From assembly GCA_001779595.1 (NCBI GenBank), contig MFKO01000008.1, forward strand, positions 48,236 through 85,190: a stretch of DNA of 36,955 bases, given 5' to 3'. This DNA comes from Candidatus Kaiserbacteria bacterium RIFCSPHIGHO2_01_FULL_46_22. GTDB lineage: Bacteria > Patescibacteriota > Minisyncoccia > Phycocordibacterales > UBA918. A program made the translations under genes and the position numbers. Positions 15,597-33,650 of the stretch are shown piece by piece; position 1 is the first letter of the stretch; each line of letters begins with the position of its first letter. The notes below the pieces were generated by a model, which was not told the DNA's origin, searched no databases, and saw only the letters and a program-made list of their open reading frames with translations.

Positions 15597-16241
15597 TCAC
15601 ATTCCAGGTAAACCAGTAAAGGCAGTGAATACGGACGAAACGACCACAGAGAACGGGCCCCAGAAGAAATTTATGAAGATAAATATAAATAGGAAGGTGC
15701 CGATCAATCCCCAACGTTCAAAACTATGCACGAAATTACGGTAGCCAAGCTGGGCCCGAAGTGGTAAAAACGGCTGGATGATCTTAGAACCATCTAGAGG
15801 TGGGATAGGAATTAGGTTAAAAAACGCCAGTAGCAAGTTGATATAGACCACATAGGCAGCAATATCAGTGAAGGCCATTGGCAAACCGAGTGGCGCCGCA
15901 AACCGGATAAGAAGAGCAAAAAGAAGCGCTAGTGCGACATTGGTAACTGGACCAGCAGCGGCCACCTTGGCTTCACCCCACTTTTGGTCGGAAAGGTTGT
16001 AGGGATTGTATGGCACTGGTTTAGCCCAGCCGAACATCAGGCCAGCGTTGGATAAGAAGAGCAGCGCCGGTACTACAACTGACCCTAATGGATCAATGTG
16101 AACTAATGGGTTAGGTGACAACCTGCCCTGCAAACGGGCTGTAGGGTCTCCCAAACGGTCGGCGGCGAAGCCGTGGGCCATTTCATGCAAAATGATTGAA
16201 ATGATTAAAACGGCGATGGTTGCTATAACTGTGATTTCCAT
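15597..16241 (-). CDS. Site-2 protease family membrane metalloprotease (M50)
   Basis: 214 residues from MEITVIATIAVLIIS; a longer upstream frame is not used because the -10 box at 16251-16256 lies just before this ATG. The zinc motif HEMAHG is at residues 19-24 in the first membrane helix. The third ligand region is NLIPIPPLDGSKI near residue 150. Four to five membrane helices are apparent and no PDZ domain is present, so this is the short family type. Such proteases cleave membrane-embedded substrates, but the substrate is unknown. It is divergent from rpmB with 70 bp between the start codons. Confidence 0.9.
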   Translation of the reverse strand: MEITVIATIAVLIISIILHEMAHGFAADRLGDPTARLQGRLSPNPLVHIDPLGSVVVPALLFLSNAGLMFGWAKPVPYNPYNLSDQKWGEAKVAAAGPVTNVALALLFALLIRFAAPLGLPMAFTDIAAYVVYINLLLAFFNLIPIPPLDGSKIIQPFLPLRAQLGYRNFVHSFERWGLIGTFLFIFIFINFFWGPFSVVVSSVFTAFTGLPGM

Positions 16242-16250
16242 AGATAAGCA

Positions 16251-16300
16251 ATGGTAACGTATTGGCGGATGGTTGCAAAATCTGATTCGTATGATAGTAT
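16251..16300. promoter_or_regulatory. Divergent promoters sharing one palindromic -35 box
   Basis: TTGCAA (16273-16278) is its own reverse complement. A 16-bp spacer to the right gives TAGTAT (16295-16300) for rpmB. A 16-bp spacer to the left gives TACCAT (16251-16256, minus) for the site-2 protease. Start codons lie 11 and 9 bases from the -10 boxes, predicting 5' leaders of only a few nucleotides. Confidence 0.65.
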
Positions 16301-16311
16301 TTCGCGCACAT

Positions 16312-16554
16312 ATGGCTAAGGTTTGCGACATCACAGGAAAAGGCACCCAAGTGGGTGGCCGTTACTCTAACCGCACTCGTGCGACGCAGTTTAACCCTTG
16401 CGGCAAGGTTCGTCGTTCTCCAAACCTACAGAAAAAGCGCATCTTCGTACCAGAGATCGAAACCTACGTAACACTCAATGTTTCAACCAAAGCTTTACGT
16501 ACTATCGCCAAAAACGGCGCCTACAAGACTCTGAAGACTGCGGGACTTATTTAA
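16312..16554 (+). CDS. rpmB: 50S ribosomal protein L28
   Basis: 80 residues from MAKVCDITGKGTQVGGRYS. The L28 core NRTRATQFNPCGKVRRSPNL and the following beta strand (KRIFVPEIETYVTLNVS) and TKALRTIAKNGAYKTL helix are clear. Only C5 and C30 remain of the possible zinc cysteines. The upstream in-frame extension is excluded because the promoter's -10 box lies inside it. No Shine-Dalgarno is present and the predicted 5' leader is about five bases. The gene stands alone with its own terminator, not next to rpmG. Confidence 0.95.
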   Translation: MAKVCDITGKGTQVGGRYSNRTRATQFNPCGKVRRSPNLQKKRIFVPEIETYVTLNVSTKALRTIAKNGAYKTLKTAGLI

Positions 16555-16570
16555 TCTTTTCAGAAGTGAA

Positions 16571-16609
16571 ATACAAAAGACGCGAGGCAGAGCCTCGCGT
16601 CTTTTGTAT
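16571..16609. terminator. Shared terminator of rpmB and the secreted Ig-like gene
   Basis: A perfect 18-bp stem with loop AGA, from ATACAAAAGACGCGAGGC, lies between convergent genes and has A- and T-tracts for both directions. Confidence 0.9.
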
Positions 16610-16627
16610 TTACAAGAATCAACGCAA

Positions 16628-17257
16628 TTACTTCTCTACGGTTGTAAAAACTACTCCGTTCCACTGACACTCCAAAGTATCGCCAGCCTTTATCCCATAT
16701 TGTGCTGTGTCACCGTAAGCCTGGACGCATTTTGCACGCGCTTCCTGCTCACTGATGTCCGCGACAGACAAGACTGTCTTGCCGTTTAGATCAACCTTCA
16801 ATTCCGCGACTGTGAATTCGAACGGAAGTGCAAATTTTTGACGCAAGAAGCCATTTAAGTAGAGCACGAATTCATTTTCACCAAGCGGTAAGGCCGTTGT
16901 CACTTGGTGTGACCAAGGCCCGTCTTCTGTCTTGATTTCAATCGGTCCATAAACTGATTTCCCTTGATTAAAGATGGCGAGCGTAACCTCCTCCACCCCT
17001 TTTGCACGGCCATATATGCGAGGTGTGGCGCTTTTTGATACCGAACTTATGCTTGCCTCTGAATTAGACTGAAATGTTACCACTGCTTTGATGTTGGCCT
17101 GTTGCAACTCTGCAATACGCGCTTCTAACTGATCAATCAATTGCAAAACCTCGGCCCTTTGTACCGTGTCTAAAGTAGTGCCAGTTGATGCGGCTTCTGC
17201 TAGCGGTGTAAACGCTAAAAAAATAAATAACGCGATCAGTAAATGAATTTTCCGCAT
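16628..17257 (-). CDS. Secreted protein with coiled coil and Ig-like domain
   Basis: 209 residues from MRKIHLLIALFIFLAFTPLA, a clear signal peptide; the ATG at 17272 would add five residues. After cleavage near AEA come a short coiled-coil helix (EVLQLIDQLEARIAELQQ) and then a beta-rich segment (PRIYGRAKGVEEVTLAIFNQG, DGPWSHQVTTALPLGENEF) resembling bacterial Ig-like modules. The C-terminal part holds two cysteines (ARAKCVQAY, TLECQWNG). It is probably a cell-surface or envelope protein, and no enzymatic motif is present. It lies 92 bp after the metallo-beta-lactamase gene on the same strand. Confidence 0.75.
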   Translation of the reverse strand: MRKIHLLIALFIFLAFTPLAEAASTGTTLDTVQRAEVLQLIDQLEARIAELQQANIKAVVTFQSNSEASISSVSKSATPRIYGRAKGVEEVTLAIFNQGKSVYGPIEIKTEDGPWSHQVTTALPLGENEFVLYLNGFLRQKFALPFEFTVAELKVDLNGKTVLSVADISEQEARAKCVQAYGDTAQYGIKAGDTLECQWNGVVFTTVEK

Positions 17258-17349
17258 ACCTGAGTTGATCATGAACGAGTGTATTTTATCGAAATAAATG
17301 TTTATTGAAACATTATAACTTAGACAAAAGCGACCGCCGAATTGGCAAT

Positions 17350-18240
17350 CTATCTTAGATTGATTACTTGCCCATCCGACCAAATAACAACCTGGCCGTG
17401 CTCAATTGTACTCAATATTTCCACTCCACTATTAAACAAAAGGTCAGTGACTTCTAAATGCGGGTGTCCGTAGGAATTATCTTTACCGGCTGAAATAACC
17501 GCATAAGTTGGTGCAACATGCTCCAGAAACAATTCCGAAGTTGAGGTACGAGACCCGTGATGTCCCACTTTAAGAACATCGCTTTTTAAGTGCTCTCCTT
17601 CAACCAAAACCAAATACTCTTCGATTGCTTTCGGGGAATCTCCCGTCAACATAAGTGAGGTCTCACCAAAAATCAGATGGGCCACTATGGAAGCAGTATT
17701 ACTTTCCATTTCGCGTGGGTCTGTATCGGGAAACAGAATCTCCAACACAACACCCGCGCCTAAATCGTAGCTTTGACCGCGAGTAGCGTAATAAACTTCT
17801 GACCTCTCAGCTTCGATTGCTTTTTCCACTGATTGCCAAATCGCCGTATCACTTTCATTCTCTGTCCTGATAACTTTGGACACACCATACCGAGCCAAAA
17901 CTTCCGCGAAGCCTCCAATATGATCGGCATCGGGATGGGTAGCGACTATGTAATCTAGGTCTTTATCGGAAAACTCCATAACCTGACTAAGTTCACGTAA
18001 TACGGCATTGTCTCCGCGCCCGGAATCAATCAGCATTTGAACACCGGTCGGTGACTGAATAAAGATTGCGTCGCCCTGGCCAACGTCCAGAAAAACCACA
18101 CAAAGCTGTGACGGATCACACGTGTCAACACCAAACAGCCGGAATTTGCCTCCGGAAAATTCCGGCCACCACACCACCGCTACCGCCAAGAAAAGCGTCC
18201 CGAGTATTACTAAACGTCGTTTAATCAGCGTTTCATCCAT
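17350..18240 (-). CDS. ComEC-type metallo-beta-lactamase-fold protein
   Basis: 296 residues. An N-terminal hydrophobic helix (about 9-25) anchors or exports the protein. The metallo-hydrolase motifs are LDVGQGDAIFIQSP, LIDSGRGDN, ATHPDADHIGG, MLTGDS and KVGHHGSRTS, followed by AVISAGKDNSYGHPH. These match the C-terminal nuclease-like domain of ComEC, thought to degrade the non-imported DNA strand (established for the domain, not shown here). The channel part of ComEC is encoded separately at 18887-20371. Its start codon is only 19 bp from that of the divergent superoxide dismutase gene. A TATGAT box (18255-18260, minus) would give a nearly leaderless mRNA. Confidence 0.9.
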   Translation of the reverse strand: MDETLIKRRLVILGTLFLAVAVVWWPEFSGGKFRLFGVDTCDPSQLCVVFLDVGQGDAIFIQSPTGVQMLIDSGRGDNAVLRELSQVMEFSDKDLDYIVATHPDADHIGGFAEVLARYGVSKVIRTENESDTAIWQSVEKAIEAERSEVYYATRGQSYDLGAGVVLEILFPDTDPREMESNTASIVAHLIFGETSLMLTGDSPKAIEEYLVLVEGEHLKSDVLKVGHHGSRTSTSELFLEHVAPTYAVISAGKDNSYGHPHLEVTDLLFNSGVEILSTIEHGQVVIWSDGQVINLR

Positions 18241-18259
18241 ATCGTTTTATTGTTATCAT

Positions 18260-18826
18260 ATGCCAATGAAATACGAAGCAAAAACGTTTGATATCCCGGA
18301 CCTTAAAGGCATCTCTTCCCTGTCGATAAATGAGCACTTGAAGCTTTACCAGGGCTACGTAAAACACGTCAATCACATTCGTGAGGAACTGGAAAAAGTT
18401 AACGATTCATACGCCAAATCAGAGATGCTGCGTCGCATGGGCTTTGAGTTTGGTGGGATGCGCAATCACGAATACTACTTTGCGCAGTTTGTGGGTGGTG
18501 CCAAAGAATTGTCCGATGGAAAGATGCTCCAAATGATTTTAAAGCAGTGGGGATCGCTAGAAAACTTTATTGAACACTTCAAGAGTGTTGCCATGACTCG
18601 CGGCGTAGGCTGGGCAATGCTTTACCTAGATCGTCAGTCTGACCAACTAGTTTCCGCCTGGGTCGACGAACAACACTTTGGTCACCTAGCCGATCTGGAC
18701 ATAGTTCTAGGCATCGATATGTGGGAGCACTCTTATATGCTCGACTATCCGCCGAGTGAAAAAACTAAGTATATCGAAGCAGTGTTTGAAAATCTAAACT
18801 GGGAAGTGGTCGCGAGTAGAGTTTAA
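18260..18826 (+). CDS. sod: Superoxide dismutase, Fe/Mn family
   Basis: 188 residues from MPMKYEAKTFDIPDL (an alternative ATG lies two codons later). The four metal ligands are recognisable: a His in INEHLKLYQGYV, a His in MRNHEYYFAQF, and Asp and His in GIDMWEHSYMLDY. The N-terminal helices are atypical, with LKLYQGYVKHVN in place of the usual HH-x-K-H pattern. The enzyme converts superoxide to peroxide and oxygen in the cytoplasm. It indicates exposure to oxygen. The gene is divergent from the ComEC-type nuclease and has no Shine-Dalgarno. Confidence 0.93.
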   Translation: MPMKYEAKTFDIPDLKGISSLSINEHLKLYQGYVKHVNHIREELEKVNDSYAKSEMLRRMGFEFGGMRNHEYYFAQFVGGAKELSDGKMLQMILKQWGSLENFIEHFKSVAMTRGVGWAMLYLDRQSDQLVSAWVDEQHFGHLADLDIVLGIDMWEHSYMLDYPPSEKTKYIEAVFENLNWEVVASRV

Positions 18827-18845
18827 AGCTAAAAATAGAAGGTCT

Positions 18846-18882
18846 ATAAAATGGGTGAAGGCAAAGCCTTCACCCATTTTAT
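18846..18882. terminator. Shared terminator of sod and comEC
   Basis: A perfect 17-bp stem ATAAAATGGGTGAAGGC with loop AAA between convergent genes. Confidence 0.9.
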
Positions 18883-18886
18883 GTTT

Positions 18887-20371
18887 TCAGCTGTTAGTTT
18901 CAACAATCGTCCACCCTTTCAAGGAGTTATGAGGCCGGTTCAACTTCCAAACCAAATAACCCAACAGCAAATATCCAATCGGCACGAAGCAAAACGAAAA
19001 CGCTGGGACCATAAACGAAGCAAACGGTAACGCACCAAACCACGCGGCCACTTTTATAATGTAAGCAAGTGAAAGATGCGTAACGTAAGCGATTGGAAGA
19101 GCGGCAGCTGGTGATACAAAAGCGATTACGCCAGTCAGGAAAGTAAGGAGCATTGCCGGAGCGACCATCGGCAATGCAAGTACATTAACTATGATCGCCA
19201 CTGCGGAAAATTCCCCGATCTGGTAAAGGAGGAGTGGTAAAACAAATAGCTGGGTAACTACCGTCGCTACCAAAAATTCGCGTAACTTAAATGCACTCGG
19301 CATCCACTGTAAACGTTCTTCTAGGTGTGGTGTGAGTAATATCAGCCCCAGTGTAGCCAGAAACGACAATTGAAACCCTACGTCAAAAGCTAGCGAATAT
19401 GGATTCCATAGAAGCATCAAAACACCCGCCAGAAGCAATCCGTTTAAGGCCAAATAAATACGTCCAGTCAAACCCACAACGAGTAGGAGTACGGCCATAA
19501 TACTGGCCCGTATTACGGTCGCTCCCATTCCTACCAACACTGCAAACGCGACAATCGCCAAGATGCCAAAGAAAGTACTAATGCGCTTGCTTAAAAAACT
19601 TCGGCATAAATAAAGGATAAAATAAACAACGATCATTATGTTGTAGCCAGACAAAACCACGATGTGAATAATGCCCGTCCTACGAAATGTCTGCTCCAAC
19701 TCTTCACCGAGTGATTGCTTAACCCCTAGCAATAAGCCTTCGCCGAGTCCAGCCGATGGCTCAGGTAAATAAACTTCTATTCTCCGCATAAATGCATGTT
19801 TGAGATCGAACAAGCGGCCGACCAGGGCGCTACCTTGGTCGGCCGCTTTTCGGTTTACTTTCGCATAGCTGATCATATATGAAACCCGCTGCGCCAGAAG
19901 ATACCCTGGGTAATTAAACGTGCGACCAAGATCAGTTTCGAATGATTCTGGACGTTTCAATGTACCCTGCAAAAAAACCAAATCACCATAACGCCAATCA
20001 CCGCCGCTTTCTGTTGTCGCTAATATCAGACCGTGTTCTGTTTTTACATAAAGATGCACCGAATTTGCCCGCACTTCCGGATCACGTGTTACGACACCTT
20101 CTAAAGCTACTTGATCACCAACCAAATCTTCAAGAAAAGGTTTGATTGCGTTATCACTTTCAAGTTGAAGACGGACCGCGCCGAGCGCGAAACACAAAAT
20201 TGCAATTGAAAATAAAACAACGGGCGCAGAATGGGCGGAGCCCATTCTGCGCCCGTTTAGGGCCACTGCCGTTCCAACCAATGCTATCCACAAGATTACC
20301 GAAAGTGACACCTCATAAAACGATCTAACTAAGATACCAAAAGCGAAAGCAGCAACAGCAAGGTACAACAC
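18887..20371 (-). CDS. comEC: ComEC/Rec2 DNA-uptake channel protein, without nuclease domain
   Basis: 494 residues starting at a GTG one base after the rnhA stop. Three N-terminal membrane helices precede an OB-fold region (VALEGVVTRDPEV ... WRYGDLVFLQGTL). The Competence domain follows, with GLGEGLLLGVKQSL and IVVLSGYNIMIV and about eight further membrane helices. It should transport single-stranded DNA into the cytoplasm. The C-terminal metallo-beta-lactamase domain of classical ComEC is missing and is supplied by the gene at 17350-18240. Two long perfect hairpins lie inside the reading frame, in loop or linker regions (20221-20255 and 19812-19848). Confidence 0.93.
   Translation of the reverse strand: MLYLAVAAFAFGILVRSFYEVSLSVILWIALVGTAVALNGRRMGSAHSAPVVLFSIAILCFALGAVRLQLESDNAIKPFLEDLVGDQVALEGVVTRDPEVRANSVHLYVKTEHGLILATTESGGDWRYGDLVFLQGTLKRPESFETDLGRTFNYPGYLLAQRVSYMISYAKVNRKAADQGSALVGRLFDLKHAFMRRIEVYLPEPSAGLGEGLLLGVKQSLGEELEQTFRRTGIIHIVVLSGYNIMIVVYFILYLCRSFLSKRISTFFGILAIVAFAVLVGMGATVIRASIMAVLLLVVGLTGRIYLALNGLLLAGVLMLLWNPYSLAFDVGFQLSFLATLGLILLTPHLEERLQWMPSAFKLREFLVATVVTQLFVLPLLLYQIGEFSAVAIIVNVLALPMVAPAMLLTFLTGVIAFVSPAAALPIAYVTHLSLAYIIKVAAWFGALPFASFMVPAFSFCFVPIGYLLLGYLVWKLNRPHNSLKGWTIVETNS
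19812..19848. repeat. In-frame perfect hairpin in the comEC linker
   Basis: AAGCGGCCGACCA (19812-19824) pairs with 19836-19848 over 13 bp with an 11-nt loop. It encodes the KAADQGSALVGRL stretch between the OB-fold and Competence domains. T-rich bases follow on both strands. Confidence 0.7.
20221..20255 (-). repeat. Terminator-like hairpin inside the comEC coding sequence
   Basis: A perfect 16-bp stem CGGGCGCAGAATGGGC with loop GGA; the minus strand continues TTGTTTTATTTT. It has all marks of an intrinsic terminator but lies at codons 39-50 of comEC, in the RRMGSAHSAP loop between membrane helices 2 and 3. Confidence 0.75.
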
Positions 20372-20372
20372 T

Positions 20373-20786
20373 TTAATCTTTATCTAGAGCTTCGTTCACC
20401 AGTCGATCTGCCTCTTTATTAAATTCACGACGTACATGGACGAAGTTAAGTTGTGGAAAATGCACTCTTAAATCTTGAATCTGCAAATACAACTCGCGTA
20501 GCCCGGGATTTTTGATCTTGTAGGCGCCTGCCAATTGCCTCTCCACGAGCTCACTGTCCAGTTTCCATTCGATTTCCAATTCCTTAGTCTCTGCTCCAAA
20601 GCGCGAGCGCAAAACTTCAAGGCCCCGCAGTACGGCAGTATATTCAGCAATGTTGTTGGTAGCGTCACCAATCGCTTCAGAAATTTCTTCCAACAAATTT
20701 TCACCTTCTTTTATCACAACACCAATCGCGGCTGGACCGGGATTACCCCTAGCTCCACCATCGCTCCATACCGTAATTTTTTTCAT
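20373..20786 (-). CDS. rnhA: Ribonuclease HI
   Basis: 137 residues. The catalytic carboxylates are visible as D9 in VWSDGGARGNPG, E48 in NNIAEYTAV, an Asp in WKLDSELV, and an Asp in KEADRLVNEAL. The enzyme removes RNA from RNA/DNA hybrids. A TAGAAT box (20793-20798) ends six bases before the ATG, suggesting a leaderless mRNA. The stop is one base from the GTG of comEC, so the two genes are translationally adjacent and co-transcribed. Confidence 0.95.
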   Translation of the reverse strand: MKKITVWSDGGARGNPGPAAIGVVIKEGENLLEEISEAIGDATNNIAEYTAVLRGLEVLRSRFGAETKELEIEWKLDSELVERQLAGAYKIKNPGLRELYLQIQDLRVHFPQLNFVHVRREFNKEADRLVNEALDKD

Positions 20787-20803
20787 AGAGATATTCTAGC
20801 AAA

Positions 20804-20829
20804 GAAAAAAGGCCGCCTGTGAGCGACCT
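20804..20829 (-). terminator. Terminator of recJ and the zinc-knuckle gene
   Basis: A 7-bp stem (AGGTCGC/GCGGCCT, one G-U pair) with a 6-nt loop, followed on the minus strand by TTTTTTCTTT. Confidence 0.75.
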
Positions 20830-20851
20830 TTTGTGACGAATCGGAAATGAC

Positions 20852-21019
20852 TTACTTCGGAGGATGGAAAGTGCCTTCGCACCTAGGGCCTCGGGGTGGA
20901 TGGACTGAAACCACCTCCCGATCTCCATAGTATGACAATCTGATTCTCGTGCCACATTTGCGGCAAGTTCCCAATGCTGGGTTAGTAGTGGGAAAGTCCG
21001 GGTATTCCATTAAGAACAT
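20852..21019 (-). CDS. 55-aa zinc-knuckle-like protein
   Basis: ATG at 21019 is preceded by AAGGAG at six bases. The protein contains GTCRKCGTRIRLSYYG (C19, C22), an SVHPP segment (H40) and RCEGTFHPP (C47, H51), so C-x2-C plus a later Cys/His pair could hold one zinc ion. The arrangement resembles a small zinc ribbon, but no family was recognised. It begins 29 bp after the recJ stop and probably shares its transcript, ending at the terminator at 20804-20829. The strong Shine-Dalgarno contrasts with recJ, which has none. Confidence 0.65.
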   Translation of the reverse strand: MFLMEYPDFPTTNPALGTCRKCGTRIRLSYYGDREVVSVHPPRGPRCEGTFHPPK

Positions 21020-21048
21020 TCTTCTCTCCTTGTTGGCCGGCCGAGATA

Positions 21049-22728
21049 TTAGAACGAATTCTCAATAATGTCAACGATACGTAGGCGGGTTTGCGCTCGG
21101 TTCATAAAGAATGACTCCTCGACGTGCGCTATTAGTTGAAGCGGCTGCCCTACCTCTGGAGTAACAGCGTATTGATCGACGGTGGCAAAAAATGCGATAG
21201 CCTCCATTTGCCCACGCGGGGTTTCAAAGATGAGTTTCAGATGCTCCTTGGTTTTACCAAACTGCTCTACCTTAAGTGGTGAAACACCAGCAAAACTGAA
21301 AAGTGGTTTCGAATTGCCGGCACCAAACGGTGCCAACTGACGCAGATGACCAAGTAGTGACGAATTTATATCAGCCAAATTTAAAGTAGCGTCTATTACT
21401 TTTTCGTCATTAGCTAAAGCTGCGGCCCCTAAGTCTTGATGGGCTTGATTTAAGCTTTTAGAAAGAGTGAAAACTGATTCCTCTTTAACTGAGAAGCCGC
21501 CAGAAGCGTGATGTCCTCCGTGTTCCAAAAAATGTTCTGAGATCTTGTCCATTAGTCGCACCACAGAAACACCACCGCCACTTCGACATGAACCTTTTAT
21601 CACACCCTGTCCATCCCGACCCCATAAAAAAACCGGCCTACGATACTCCGAAGAAAGTCCGTTAGCACAAAGCCCGACCAATGCCGGCCGCCATTCCGGA
21701 TTACCCATTACCAATACATCTGGTATCTCCACCATCTCACTCAAGCGACGTTTCAACTCTTTAGTCATTGACGCGACCACTCCTTTTCGTTCGTTATTTA
21801 ATTTTTCCAAGTGATTAACCCGCGCACCAGCTTCTCCTTCATCTTGGAGAGACAACATCAGGAAAGCATCTTCTGGTGTATCCATTCTTGAAGCAGCATT
21901 GATCCGTGGACCGATAGTAAATCCAATATCGTCTTCAGTCAGACGTCTTTGATCCGTGCGCACCTTGCGCAAAAGCTGGTGCAGACCCGGCCGGCGTGAC
22001 TTACGCAAAACCTGCAATCCGAATGAAGCCAACACTCTGTTCTCACCTAAGAGCGGCACCATATCACCGACTGTAGCTATACCGACCATATCGAGCCACC
22101 ACTTCTCTTGGCCAGGTTTCAGAGAAAAATTGCCGCGCTCGATTAACGCTTCAGCTAATTTGAAGGCGACCGCCGCTCCACACAAGTGAGGAAATGGATA
22201 ACTGTCGCCAATTCGAGGGTTAACAATTGCTACTGCTTCTGGTAACACAGAAGGTGGCTCGTGGTGATCAGTGATTATGAGATCGATTTTGAGGGCAGCG
22301 GCCCGCAGACTCGCTGCCCTATCGGACGTGCCGCAATCTATCGTAATGATGAGTTGTACTCCATCTCGATGCATCTCTTCTACTGCACTCTCACTCAAAC
22401 CAAAGCCGTCAAAGTGCCGATGTGGGATCCGAATTATGAAGTTATCAAAACCAATGGCGCGAAAAAAATCATTCAATACGACGGCTCCGGGAATACCGTC
22501 ACAATCGTAGTCAGCATAAACAGCAATTTTTTCACCATCTTTAACAGCTTGAAGTACCCTCTCCACAGCCTTGTCCATATCGTGAAGAAGAAAAGGATCA
22601 TGCCTGTGCTTGTTGTAATCGGGGTAGAGGAAATCCCCAATCGCCTTTTCTTCAGTTAGACCTCGGTTATGTAGGAGTTGCGTCAATAAATCTTCGCTCA
22701 CCCGCTCCGCCAAACGATAAGTTGCCAT
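21049..22728 (-). CDS. recJ: Single-stranded-DNA exonuclease RecJ
   Basis: 559 residues from MATYRLAERVSEDLL; an in-frame upstream extension crosses the divergent HIT promoter and is not used. The DHH motifs are AVYADYDCDGIPGAVV, IIITDHHEPP-type (LIITDHHEP), and the later VNPRIGDSYPFPHLCGAAVAFK. The DHHA1 domain carries SCRSGGGVSVVRLM and HGGHHASGGFSV, and an OB-like C-terminus follows. RecJ degrades single-stranded DNA 5' to 3' in recombination and mismatch repair. Length is typical. The start codon is 28 bp from that of the divergent HIT gene. Confidence 0.95.
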   Translation of the reverse strand: MATYRLAERVSEDLLTQLLHNRGLTEEKAIGDFLYPDYNKHRHDPFLLHDMDKAVERVLQAVKDGEKIAVYADYDCDGIPGAVVLNDFFRAIGFDNFIIRIPHRHFDGFGLSESAVEEMHRDGVQLIITIDCGTSDRAASLRAAALKIDLIITDHHEPPSVLPEAVAIVNPRIGDSYPFPHLCGAAVAFKLAEALIERGNFSLKPGQEKWWLDMVGIATVGDMVPLLGENRVLASFGLQVLRKSRRPGLHQLLRKVRTDQRRLTEDDIGFTIGPRINAASRMDTPEDAFLMLSLQDEGEAGARVNHLEKLNNERKGVVASMTKELKRRLSEMVEIPDVLVMGNPEWRPALVGLCANGLSSEYRRPVFLWGRDGQGVIKGSCRSGGGVSVVRLMDKISEHFLEHGGHHASGGFSVKEESVFTLSKSLNQAHQDLGAAALANDEKVIDATLNLADINSSLLGHLRQLAPFGAGNSKPLFSFAGVSPLKVEQFGKTKEHLKLIFETPRGQMEAIAFFATVDQYAVTPEVGQPLQLIAHVEESFFMNRAQTRLRIVDIIENSF

Positions 22729-22749
22729 ACGTGTTATGGGCAATATAAT
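22722..22749 (+). promoter_or_regulatory. Promoter of the HIT gene (leaderless)
   Basis: TTGCCA (22722-22727), a 16-bp spacer and TATAAT (22744-22749). The ATG at 22757 is at the expected transcription start. The -35 box overlaps the first codons of recJ, and TATTAT on the other strand (22745-22750) overlaps the -10 box. Confidence 0.75.
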
Positions 22750-22756
22750 AGCATTT

Positions 22757-23164
22757 ATGACTAATTCGATTTTTTCTAAAATAATCGCCCGCGAAGTGCC
22801 GGCACACTTCATCTATGAGGATGATATTTGCGTGGCAATACTCGATAAATTTCCAACTGTATCGGGCCAGTCTTTAGTAATTCCAAAGAAAGAGCTTGAT
22901 TATGCTTTTGATTTAGACGACGAGACTTACCTACATCTATTCACGGTAGCCAAGAAAATTGCCCGCGCGTCTGATCTTGCACTACAAACCGCTCGTACCT
23001 GTTTGGTAGTCGAAGGTTTCGAAGTTCCTCATACTCATATCAAGCTTTACCCGATGCCAAAGGACAATCATGATCTAGGCTCTCTACTTTCTGGAGGAAA
23101 AATGGCCGACGATGAAACTCTTGCGGCAATCGCAGAGAAAATAAAGTCCACCCTAGCGTTTTAA
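22757..23164 (+). CDS. HIT-family nucleotide hydrolase/transferase
   Basis: 135 residues from MTNSIFSKIIAREVPAHF. The histidine triad is HTHIKLYP (PHTHIKLYPM), preceded by the usual SLVIPKKELDYAFDLDDETY segment. The family normally has H-x-H-x-H; here the third position is Lys-Leu-Tyr, so the final histidine of the triad is absent and activity may be altered. HIT proteins act on nucleoside phosphoramidates or dinucleoside polyphosphates. The mRNA is predicted to begin at the ATG. Its 3' end overlaps that of the convergent pgk gene by 12 bp. Confidence 0.88.
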   Translation: MTNSIFSKIIAREVPAHFIYEDDICVAILDKFPTVSGQSLVIPKKELDYAFDLDDETYLHLFTVAKKIARASDLALQTARTCLVVEGFEVPHTHIKLYPMPKDNHDLGSLLSGGKMADDETLAAIAEKIKSTLAF

Positions 23165-24325
23165 AACAGCTTCTATCGCCGGTAATGTTCCGGTCTCTAA
23201 GAATGTAAGCATCGCGCCGCCAGCCGTCGACAAGAAACTGAAGTCGTCATCCAAATGAAGTCCATTTATAGAAGCTACAGTATCACCTCCTCCTACAATA
23301 GAGTTGGCCTGACTACGAGCTATCGACTTTGCCAAACCTTCAGTCCCATCTACAAACCCTTGTTCAAAATTGCCAAGCGGACCATTCCACAAAATCGTAC
23401 TGGCGGAAGTGATGTAAGGAGAAAGCATTTCAATAGTCGCTGGTCCAACATCCATTATCATTTCATCTTCTCTTACCTCCTCTGGTTTGACCGTTCGTCG
23501 TCCAGACGGACTACTGGTTATCACATCAACCGGAAGAATGATGTTTGATTTTGTTAAAATATCACTCTTGGTGAGATCGATATCTGAGGTCAGCGACTTT
23601 CCAACCGGAAGACCGCGTGCCTTGAAAACGTCATTGACTAAAGCACCACCGATAAACACCTGCGTGTAACGAGAGGAAAATTTCTCAATTAGTGGCATCT
23701 TAGTTTCAAATTTGGCCCCGCCGATAACAAAAAGAGAAGGTTTGGTTGGTTCCAAGGCACTAGATAAAGCTGTGTATTCTTTTATAAATGATGCGCCAAA
23801 GTAACTTGGTAAATACTTTGGAATGCCGACGATCGAACTGTGATCACGATGCGAATCAGCGAAAGCATCATTGATATAAACCTCAGCCAAGTCCGCTAAT
23901 TCAGCGGACAATGAGTCGTCTCCTTTTACTTCTCGCGGATCGCGGCGGACATTTTCCAGCAAAAGTACTTCACCTTCCCCTAGTCCCTCAGCAAGAAGAG
24001 CTGTCTGGCTTGAAAGCTCTCCACCCCATTTAGCGCCGACTGAATCGCGAAGTACTTCATAAACTGGTTCTAAGGATTCTTCCGGTGCGCGCCCAATGTG
24101 ACCAATAACGATTACCTTTGCTCCCTCGGCTTGTAAGTACTTAATGGTTGGAAGAGCCTGTTCGATACGAAAAAATTCTGCCACCTTTCCATCTTTTACG
24201 GGAACATTGAGGCCAGCACGAAGCAGCACTTTTTTACCTCGTAATTCAGAAATGTCCTCAAAAGACGGAAGCTTGGATATAGACACCGATTGTCCCCGTT
24301 TAAACCAATTAAGCCAATTTTGCAT
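23153..24325 (-). CDS. pgk: Phosphoglycerate kinase
   Basis: 390 residues. It catalyses ATP formation from 1,3-bisphosphoglycerate in glycolysis. Conserved parts are IGHIGRAPE, LLENVRRDPRE, INDAFADSHRDHSSIVG, IGGAKFETKMPLI, LWNGPLGNFEQGF and IVGGGDTVASI. The first substrate motif reads LLRAGLNVPV, with Gly in place of the Asp of the usual R-x-D-x-N-V-P. An N-terminal extension of about 28 residues precedes the fold. The start overlaps the tpiA stop by 17 bp, so the two are translationally coupled. A minus-strand unit gspE-like, tpiA, pgk is likely. Confidence 0.95.
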   Translation of the reverse strand: MQNWLNWFKRGQSVSISKLPSFEDISELRGKKVLLRAGLNVPVKDGKVAEFFRIEQALPTIKYLQAEGAKVIVIGHIGRAPEESLEPVYEVLRDSVGAKWGGELSSQTALLAEGLGEGEVLLLENVRRDPREVKGDDSLSAELADLAEVYINDAFADSHRDHSSIVGIPKYLPSYFGASFIKEYTALSSALEPTKPSLFVIGGAKFETKMPLIEKFSSRYTQVFIGGALVNDVFKARGLPVGKSLTSDIDLTKSDILTKSNIILPVDVITSSPSGRRTVKPEEVREDEMIMDVGPATIEMLSPYITSASTILWNGPLGNFEQGFVDGTEGLAKSIARSQANSIVGGGDTVASINGLHLDDDFSFLSTAGGAMLTFLETGTLPAIEAVLKR

Positions 24326-29563: not shown

Positions 29564-29589
29564 ACTGCACTGATTGTGACGTTGTGTAT

Positions 29590-29622
29590 AAAACGGCTGG
29601 GAGCTTCGCTCCCAGCCGTTTT
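29590..29622 (+). terminator. ppa terminator
   Basis: A perfect 15-bp stem AAAACGGCTGGGAGC with loop TTC. Its T-tract runs into TATAAT (29622-29627). Confidence 0.9.
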
Positions 29623-29633
29623 ATAATATACAA

Positions 29634-33609: not shown

Positions 33610-33650
33610 AAAACCGACGCCGCGGCCCTTTGGGCCGCGGCGTCGGTTTT
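33610..33650 (+). terminator. clpP terminator
   Basis: A perfect 19-bp stem AAAACCGACGCCGCGGCCC with loop TTT, the longest stem in the window. Confidence 0.92.

Follow-up and report, generated by a model that had tools for sequence, protein, structure and literature searches.

Perfect in-frame palindromes recur at a fixed site of comEC and are concentrated in competence genes of a patescibacterial lineage

Why should a long, perfect inverted repeat lie inside the reading frame of comEC, a gene for DNA uptake? The question is raised by a contig (MFKO01000008.1) of Candidatus Kaiserbacteria bacterium RIFCSPHIGHO2_01_FULL_46_22, whose genome of 647 kb is 97% complete and from which a stretch of 36,955 nucleotides, hereafter the window, was analysed. 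The encoded protein is a ComEC by its Pfam matches (Competence, 3e-53; DUF4131, 5.9e-15), and the repeat lies near its N-terminus (Table 1). An initial annotation, made from the sequence alone, had offered two readings of the repeat: a transcription terminator within comEC, or a palindrome inserted in frame. No Rfam family matched anywhere in the entire window.

Table 1 Features of the comEC locus, in positions of the window
Feature	Position	Strand	Remarks
comEC	18887..20371	(-)	DUF4131 and Competence domains; 494 aa; GTG start
Coding palindrome of comEC	20219..20257	(-)	Codons 39-51; 18-bp perfect stem; arms 20219-20236 and 20240-20257; loop TCC (20237-20239)
T-rich stretch 3' of the stem (GTTTTATTTTC...)	20206..20218	(-)	First codons of the next transmembrane helix
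Second coding palindrome of comEC	19812..19848	(-)	About codons 174-187; 16 columns, 94% complementary; 5-nt gap
Imperfect hairpin in metallo-beta-lactamase gene (17350-18240)	18138..18166	(-)	Near codon 30; 13 nt, 92%
RNase H-like gene (rnhA)	20373..20786		comEC starts 1 bp behind it
Intergenic hairpins (examples among others)	16569-16611; 18846-18882; 29587-29625; 33610-33650		

The repeat occupies exactly 13 codons of comEC (AAC to GTT; NGRRMGSAHSAPV), and its loop is codon 45. The perfect pairing, the 3-nt loop, and the position in the stretch that joins two membrane helices of ComEC are all as first annotated, but the stem measures 18 bp and not 16 bp. In RNA folding the hairpin reached -43.3 kcal/mol, compared with -26.2 for shuffled sequences (z -4.6), while synonymous recodings of the same peptide reached -20.8 against -40.8 kcal/mol for the native codons (z -5.3), none of 200 being as good. 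The inverted repeat is therefore real, being perfectly paired and more stable than either shuffles or recodings. Nor is it a product of chance, because codon-shuffled genes amounting to 855 kb contained zero perfect stems of at least 12 bp. The comEC hairpin is a coding palindrome, both arms of which are translated as ComEC in an intact gene. In the metallo-beta-lactamase gene, some relatives (L043 and L081) carry perfect hairpins where that of the window is imperfect.

Some 70 genomes at the level of genus, family, and order supplied comEC genes, and 41 orthologues from the family were examined for a hairpin at the same site. Eleven carry one (the window, G018, G005, G006, G007, G013, G029, G019, G040, G046, and G048), of which eight are perfect, two contain one G-T pair, and one, in G019, has decayed. 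Stems of the comEC hairpins range from 11 to 22 bp. The codon register is identical in all 11 carriers and the triloop is always one codon, though the sequences differ. Presence is close to all-or-none: with synonymous recoding, carriers score z values of -3.3 to -6.7 and most other orthologues about 0, and repeat identity is binary, perfect or absent, apart from one decayed case (L054). Outside the family, three genomes (L100, L117, and L122) show hairpins of other forms at the comEC site. A second hot spot lies in the hydrophilic C-terminal tail; there, a different register is common to nine of ten triloop hairpins.

A fold-back chimera of sequencing or assembly is hardly credible as the source of these repeats. 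Palindromes can arise in amplified DNA, and in one assembly (G020; L005) a run of N stands precisely where the hairpin would be, but independent assemblies agree in placing hairpins at identical codons, with the frame open and the arms covarying. The assembly of G018 (contigs C4 and C6) has its break in comEC between codons 119 and 180, close to where the window has its second palindrome; palindromes may cause such assembly gaps.

The two arms change together. Over 12 inner pairs in each of the 11 site hairpins, 128 of 132 cells are Watson-Crick pairs, two are G-T pairs, and two are mismatched (130 of 132 pair), whereas arms swapped between species pair at only 60% of positions (49% Watson-Crick and 11% G-T). 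Pairwise differences between site hairpins are double-sided in 321 cases and single-sided in 29; for the hairpins of the C-terminal tail, a set chosen beforehand for perfect stems, the counts are 324 and 0. G018, a sister species and the closest relative in comEC, has retained the hairpin, and its stem differs from that of the window by four double changes and not one single change. Between another sister pair (L085 and L086) the arms are identical across 14 bp despite long branches, which could reflect purifying selection or local transfer. The comEC hairpin is thus maintained or re-made at the nucleotide level across species, even though the residues that it encodes do not stay the same.

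Carriers are scattered on the ComEC protein tree, where the 11 of them require at least 8-9 changes (mean of 10.0 when shuffled). The hairpin has therefore often been gained or lost, although its register never varies. It may be an old hairpin that was lost on many occasions, or one repeatedly re-made from near-complementary codons of the protein motif around the loop, in which W-R-R precedes and S-P follows.

The terminator reading holds that the stem and a U-run halt transcription early in comEC whenever no ribosome closely follows the polymerase. Several features resemble intrinsic (Rho-independent) terminators: the hairpin folds stably, in the window species the GC-rich stem is followed by a T-run, intergenic hairpins of the genus are built in the same style, and the best match to a terminator pattern within 16000-23500 is the comEC site itself (18 pairs, 12 of them GC, with the tail GTTTTATTTT 3' of the stem on the coding strand). 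T-rich tails are present in five carriers of the family, but about half of the 11 carriers are without a T-rich tail or U-run, the match to a GC-rich stem with a U-run following it is for the window species only, and the U-run is not conserved together with the stem across orthologues. The hairpin also differs from a terminator in standing in an actively translated frame, directly behind rnhA. Carriers and non-carriers have nearly equal numbers of T in the 12 nt 3' of the site (5.8 and 5.6), since the stretch directly after it codes for a transmembrane helix. Nor do coding palindromes in general have a T-tract: the 10 nt downstream contain a mean of 3.0 T (n = 52), as composition predicts; seven of the 52 have at least 6 T there, mostly at this comEC site. 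The T-run is thus ordinary transmembrane coding, present equally with or without the hairpin, and a terminator or attenuator role is therefore not supported. We regard it as improbable, though such an effect is conceivable in the window species. Terminator finders would label coding palindromes of this kind as attenuators.

The second reading was modelled on the Rickettsia palindromic elements (Ogata et al., cited in PMC6649704), which also place a palindrome in frame within bacterial genes where the protein tolerates it, as the surface loop of ComEC does. Those elements are dispersed repeat families that insert into genes and lose their repeat identity, whereas the comEC palindrome is single-copy, uninserted, and perfect. 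A DNA search found one copy in its own genome and neither dispersed copies nor a family of similar sequence in 40 related genomes; a second, opposite-strand location in the own-genome search was the palindrome matching itself. The initial annotation had proposed an alignment of the loop with orthologues, and this alignment refutes an insertion: between the second and third membrane helices, orthologues without the hairpin have similar residues and the same loop length. Similar residues encoded in the absence of a hairpin were also one half of what the initial annotation had named as its refutation. In addition, the arms are wholly different between carriers. A mobile palindrome is accordingly very unlikely and appears already contradicted by these comparisons, so that of the two original readings the in-frame palindrome was the better one, while its insertion in the manner of Rickettsia falls away.

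Coding palindromes are not confined to this gene. Perfect stems of at least 12 bp were counted, with the background taken from stretches of single contigs. Inside genes, the rate per 100 kb was 5.3 in the own genome, 6.6 in the genus, 11.7 in other genera of the family, and 3.2 in other families of the order, the genus and family rates being raised because those stretches were centred on comEC, which affects the own-genome rate less. E. coli gave 0.8, as did Paenibacillus-type comEC loci, and the sole coding match in E. coli proved to be intergenic, between yccU and hspQ. Genome-wide coding counts contain some spurious short ORFs over intergenic hairpins, and the main comparison uses homologue-backed ORFs. 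Between genes, the rates were 147-236 per 100 kb in the own genome and genus versus 20 in E. coli. In the host, intergenic hairpins are long and perfect and often have a loop of 3 nt, which sets them apart from the hairpins of the E. coli control stretches. Coding palindromes were also seen in the ORFs L112:10505-12193, L112:7513-8775, L113:3728-4603, L312:5792-6610, and L314:10984-11652; judged by eye from their motifs, these ORFs resemble arginyl-tRNA synthetase, serine hydroxymethyltransferase, TatD, MutY, and uracil-DNA glycosylase.

Within coding sequence, the palindromes are far from evenly spread. Densities reach 34.7 per 100 kb in comEC and 29.3 in its metallo-beta-lactamase partner, whereas ten syntenic neighbours hold two in 162 kb. 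In comF, 14 palindromes were found in 18.6 kb. Twelve of the 30 genomes (L155-L184; compare L106:7723-8337) have one at a common site near codon 184, in the same register and with differing sequences; a second site, near codon 150, is occupied in two genomes. Synonymous recoding of comF detected a strong excess of structure at the main site in 12-13 of the 30 species and little elsewhere. Nine palindromes occur in 27 kb of dprA (30 genomes, L245-L274), spread over several sites, with three near codons 9-12. By comparison, 34 kb of trigger factor and 32 kb of the membrane protein YibE contain none. Overall, the four competence genes carry 29-75 palindromes per 100 kb compared with about 1-3 in other genes, counts that are not independent by descent. 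Sequence conservation was rejected as the cause of this enrichment, since the excess persists at a matched identity of 42-50% (31 per 100 kb in comEC versus 1.9 in other genes), in a comparison matched on conservation alone and not on expression level. The comEC palindrome is therefore one member of a larger group, which is concentrated in four competence genes: comEC, that of the lactamase-fold partner, comF, and dprA.

The apices of these hairpins are strongly constrained: 50 of 54 triloops read R-N-A or its complement (25% expected), and 49 of 54 are closed by C-G. C-(GNA)-G triloops form unusually stable DNA mini-hairpins. The R-N-A form lies on the sense strand in 26 cases and on the antisense strand in 24, and since a function in mRNA should prefer one strand, this lack of preference favours a process at the DNA level. 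Two comF palindromes (L160 and L171) share identical 11-nt arms around loops TTC and GAA, which are exact reverse complements, the pattern that would be expected from spacer inversion. In E. coli, SbcD, SbcC, and XseA are nuclease subunits; the enzymes cleave hairpins or keep events of this kind in check. Searches of the host genome for these three proteins returned no match, whereas control proteins matched. SbcD is missing in nearly the whole order, being over the cut-off in 1 of 99; its loss therefore cannot explain differences in palindromes between species or between genes.

Our preferred explanation, to which we give a probability of roughly one half on the sequence comparisons above, is that template switching makes and keeps the palindromes in a lineage without SbcCD or exonuclease VII. 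A nascent strand, folded back on itself at a stable C-(GNA)-G triloop, would copy one arm onto the other, and such copying would both extend short chance repeats into perfect stems and erase later mismatches. Variable loops and tails of the proteins would tolerate the resulting residues, loss of SbcCD and exonuclease VII would let the palindromes persist, and an effect on comEC transcription or translation, if any, would be secondary.

Two known systems offer precedents. Template switching has been described as creating and maintaining the perfect stems of hairpins in RNA genes (Monttinen and Loytynoja 2022, PMC8794818), with multibase compensatory changes and with stable loops that may prime fold-back copying; the hairpins reported here lie in protein-coding sequence, and paired multi-base changes between close relatives are found in them too, as between the window and G018. 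The coding palindromes of nematomorph mitochondria (Mikhailov et al. 2019, PMC6649704) are likewise perfect in-frame inverted repeats with both arms translated, almost all-or-none in their perfection, and gained and lost between species with some shared midpoints. The authors of that study suggest conversion by template switching, by which coding palindromes would be kept perfect. The patescibacterial repeats share with them the perfect in-frame repeat, the binary identity, and gain and loss at shared sites. They differ in size and setting: nematomorph palindromes extend up to 284 bp and lie in mitochondrial respiratory genes, whereas those described here are bacterial and competence-enriched, have triloops, and in comEC, with stems of 11-22 bp, do not reach the tens to hundreds of base pairs of the nematomorph type.

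Template switching alone does not account for the preference for competence genes, an excess that at matched conservation is easier to explain by function, and selection on structure predicts the same covariation. The main rival is thus a selected structural element, in mRNA or single-stranded DNA, that controls the expression, processing, or handling of comEC, the lactamase-fold partner, comF, and dprA, which we consider a tentative possibility. It would fit the density of palindromes in these four genes beside their near absence from trigger factor, YibE, and the syntenic neighbours, the persistence of that enrichment at matched conservation, the fixed sites and registers in comEC and comF, and the compensated changes in both comEC arms. 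However, about 30 of the 41 family orthologues are without the comEC hairpin, its gains and losses are scattered, the sites in dprA vary, and the triloop has no strand preference. In addition, neither the tail nor the loop has a fixed sequence, no binding partner is known, Rfam gives no match, and some hairpins are carried by housekeeping genes (those taken for serine hydroxymethyltransferase and TatD, and one resembling arginyl-tRNA synthetase). Selection for structure could also act together with template switching. It is conceivable, if rather doubtful, that the competence genes share a strand-symmetric element, namely a perfect, in-frame C-(RNA)-G triloop hairpin of free sequence, which is retained because it controls or marks these genes as DNA, for instance while they are single-stranded in uptake or replication.

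Reading frames seldom contain perfect inverted repeats, and the principal case on record is a curiosity of mitochondria. In the present bacterial lineage they recur, at fixed sites and with compensated arms, and their density in DNA-uptake genes is roughly 10-40 times that of the remaining genes. Two questions can thereby be tested: does covariation within a stem always point to a selected RNA, or can template switching alone produce it, and do the competence genes of Patescibacteria share a hidden structural code?

Some palindromes also lie at the beginnings of genes. In L081 and L060, they are found just upstream of and over the start codon of comEC (for example TACACTACTCGGTATGAGTAGTGTG), where they could hide the ribosome binding site. 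In three further loci (L057, L072, and L118), at ORFs whose true start codons are uncertain, perfect palindromes directly precede type IV pilin-like N-termini (FIELLV/LIELI).
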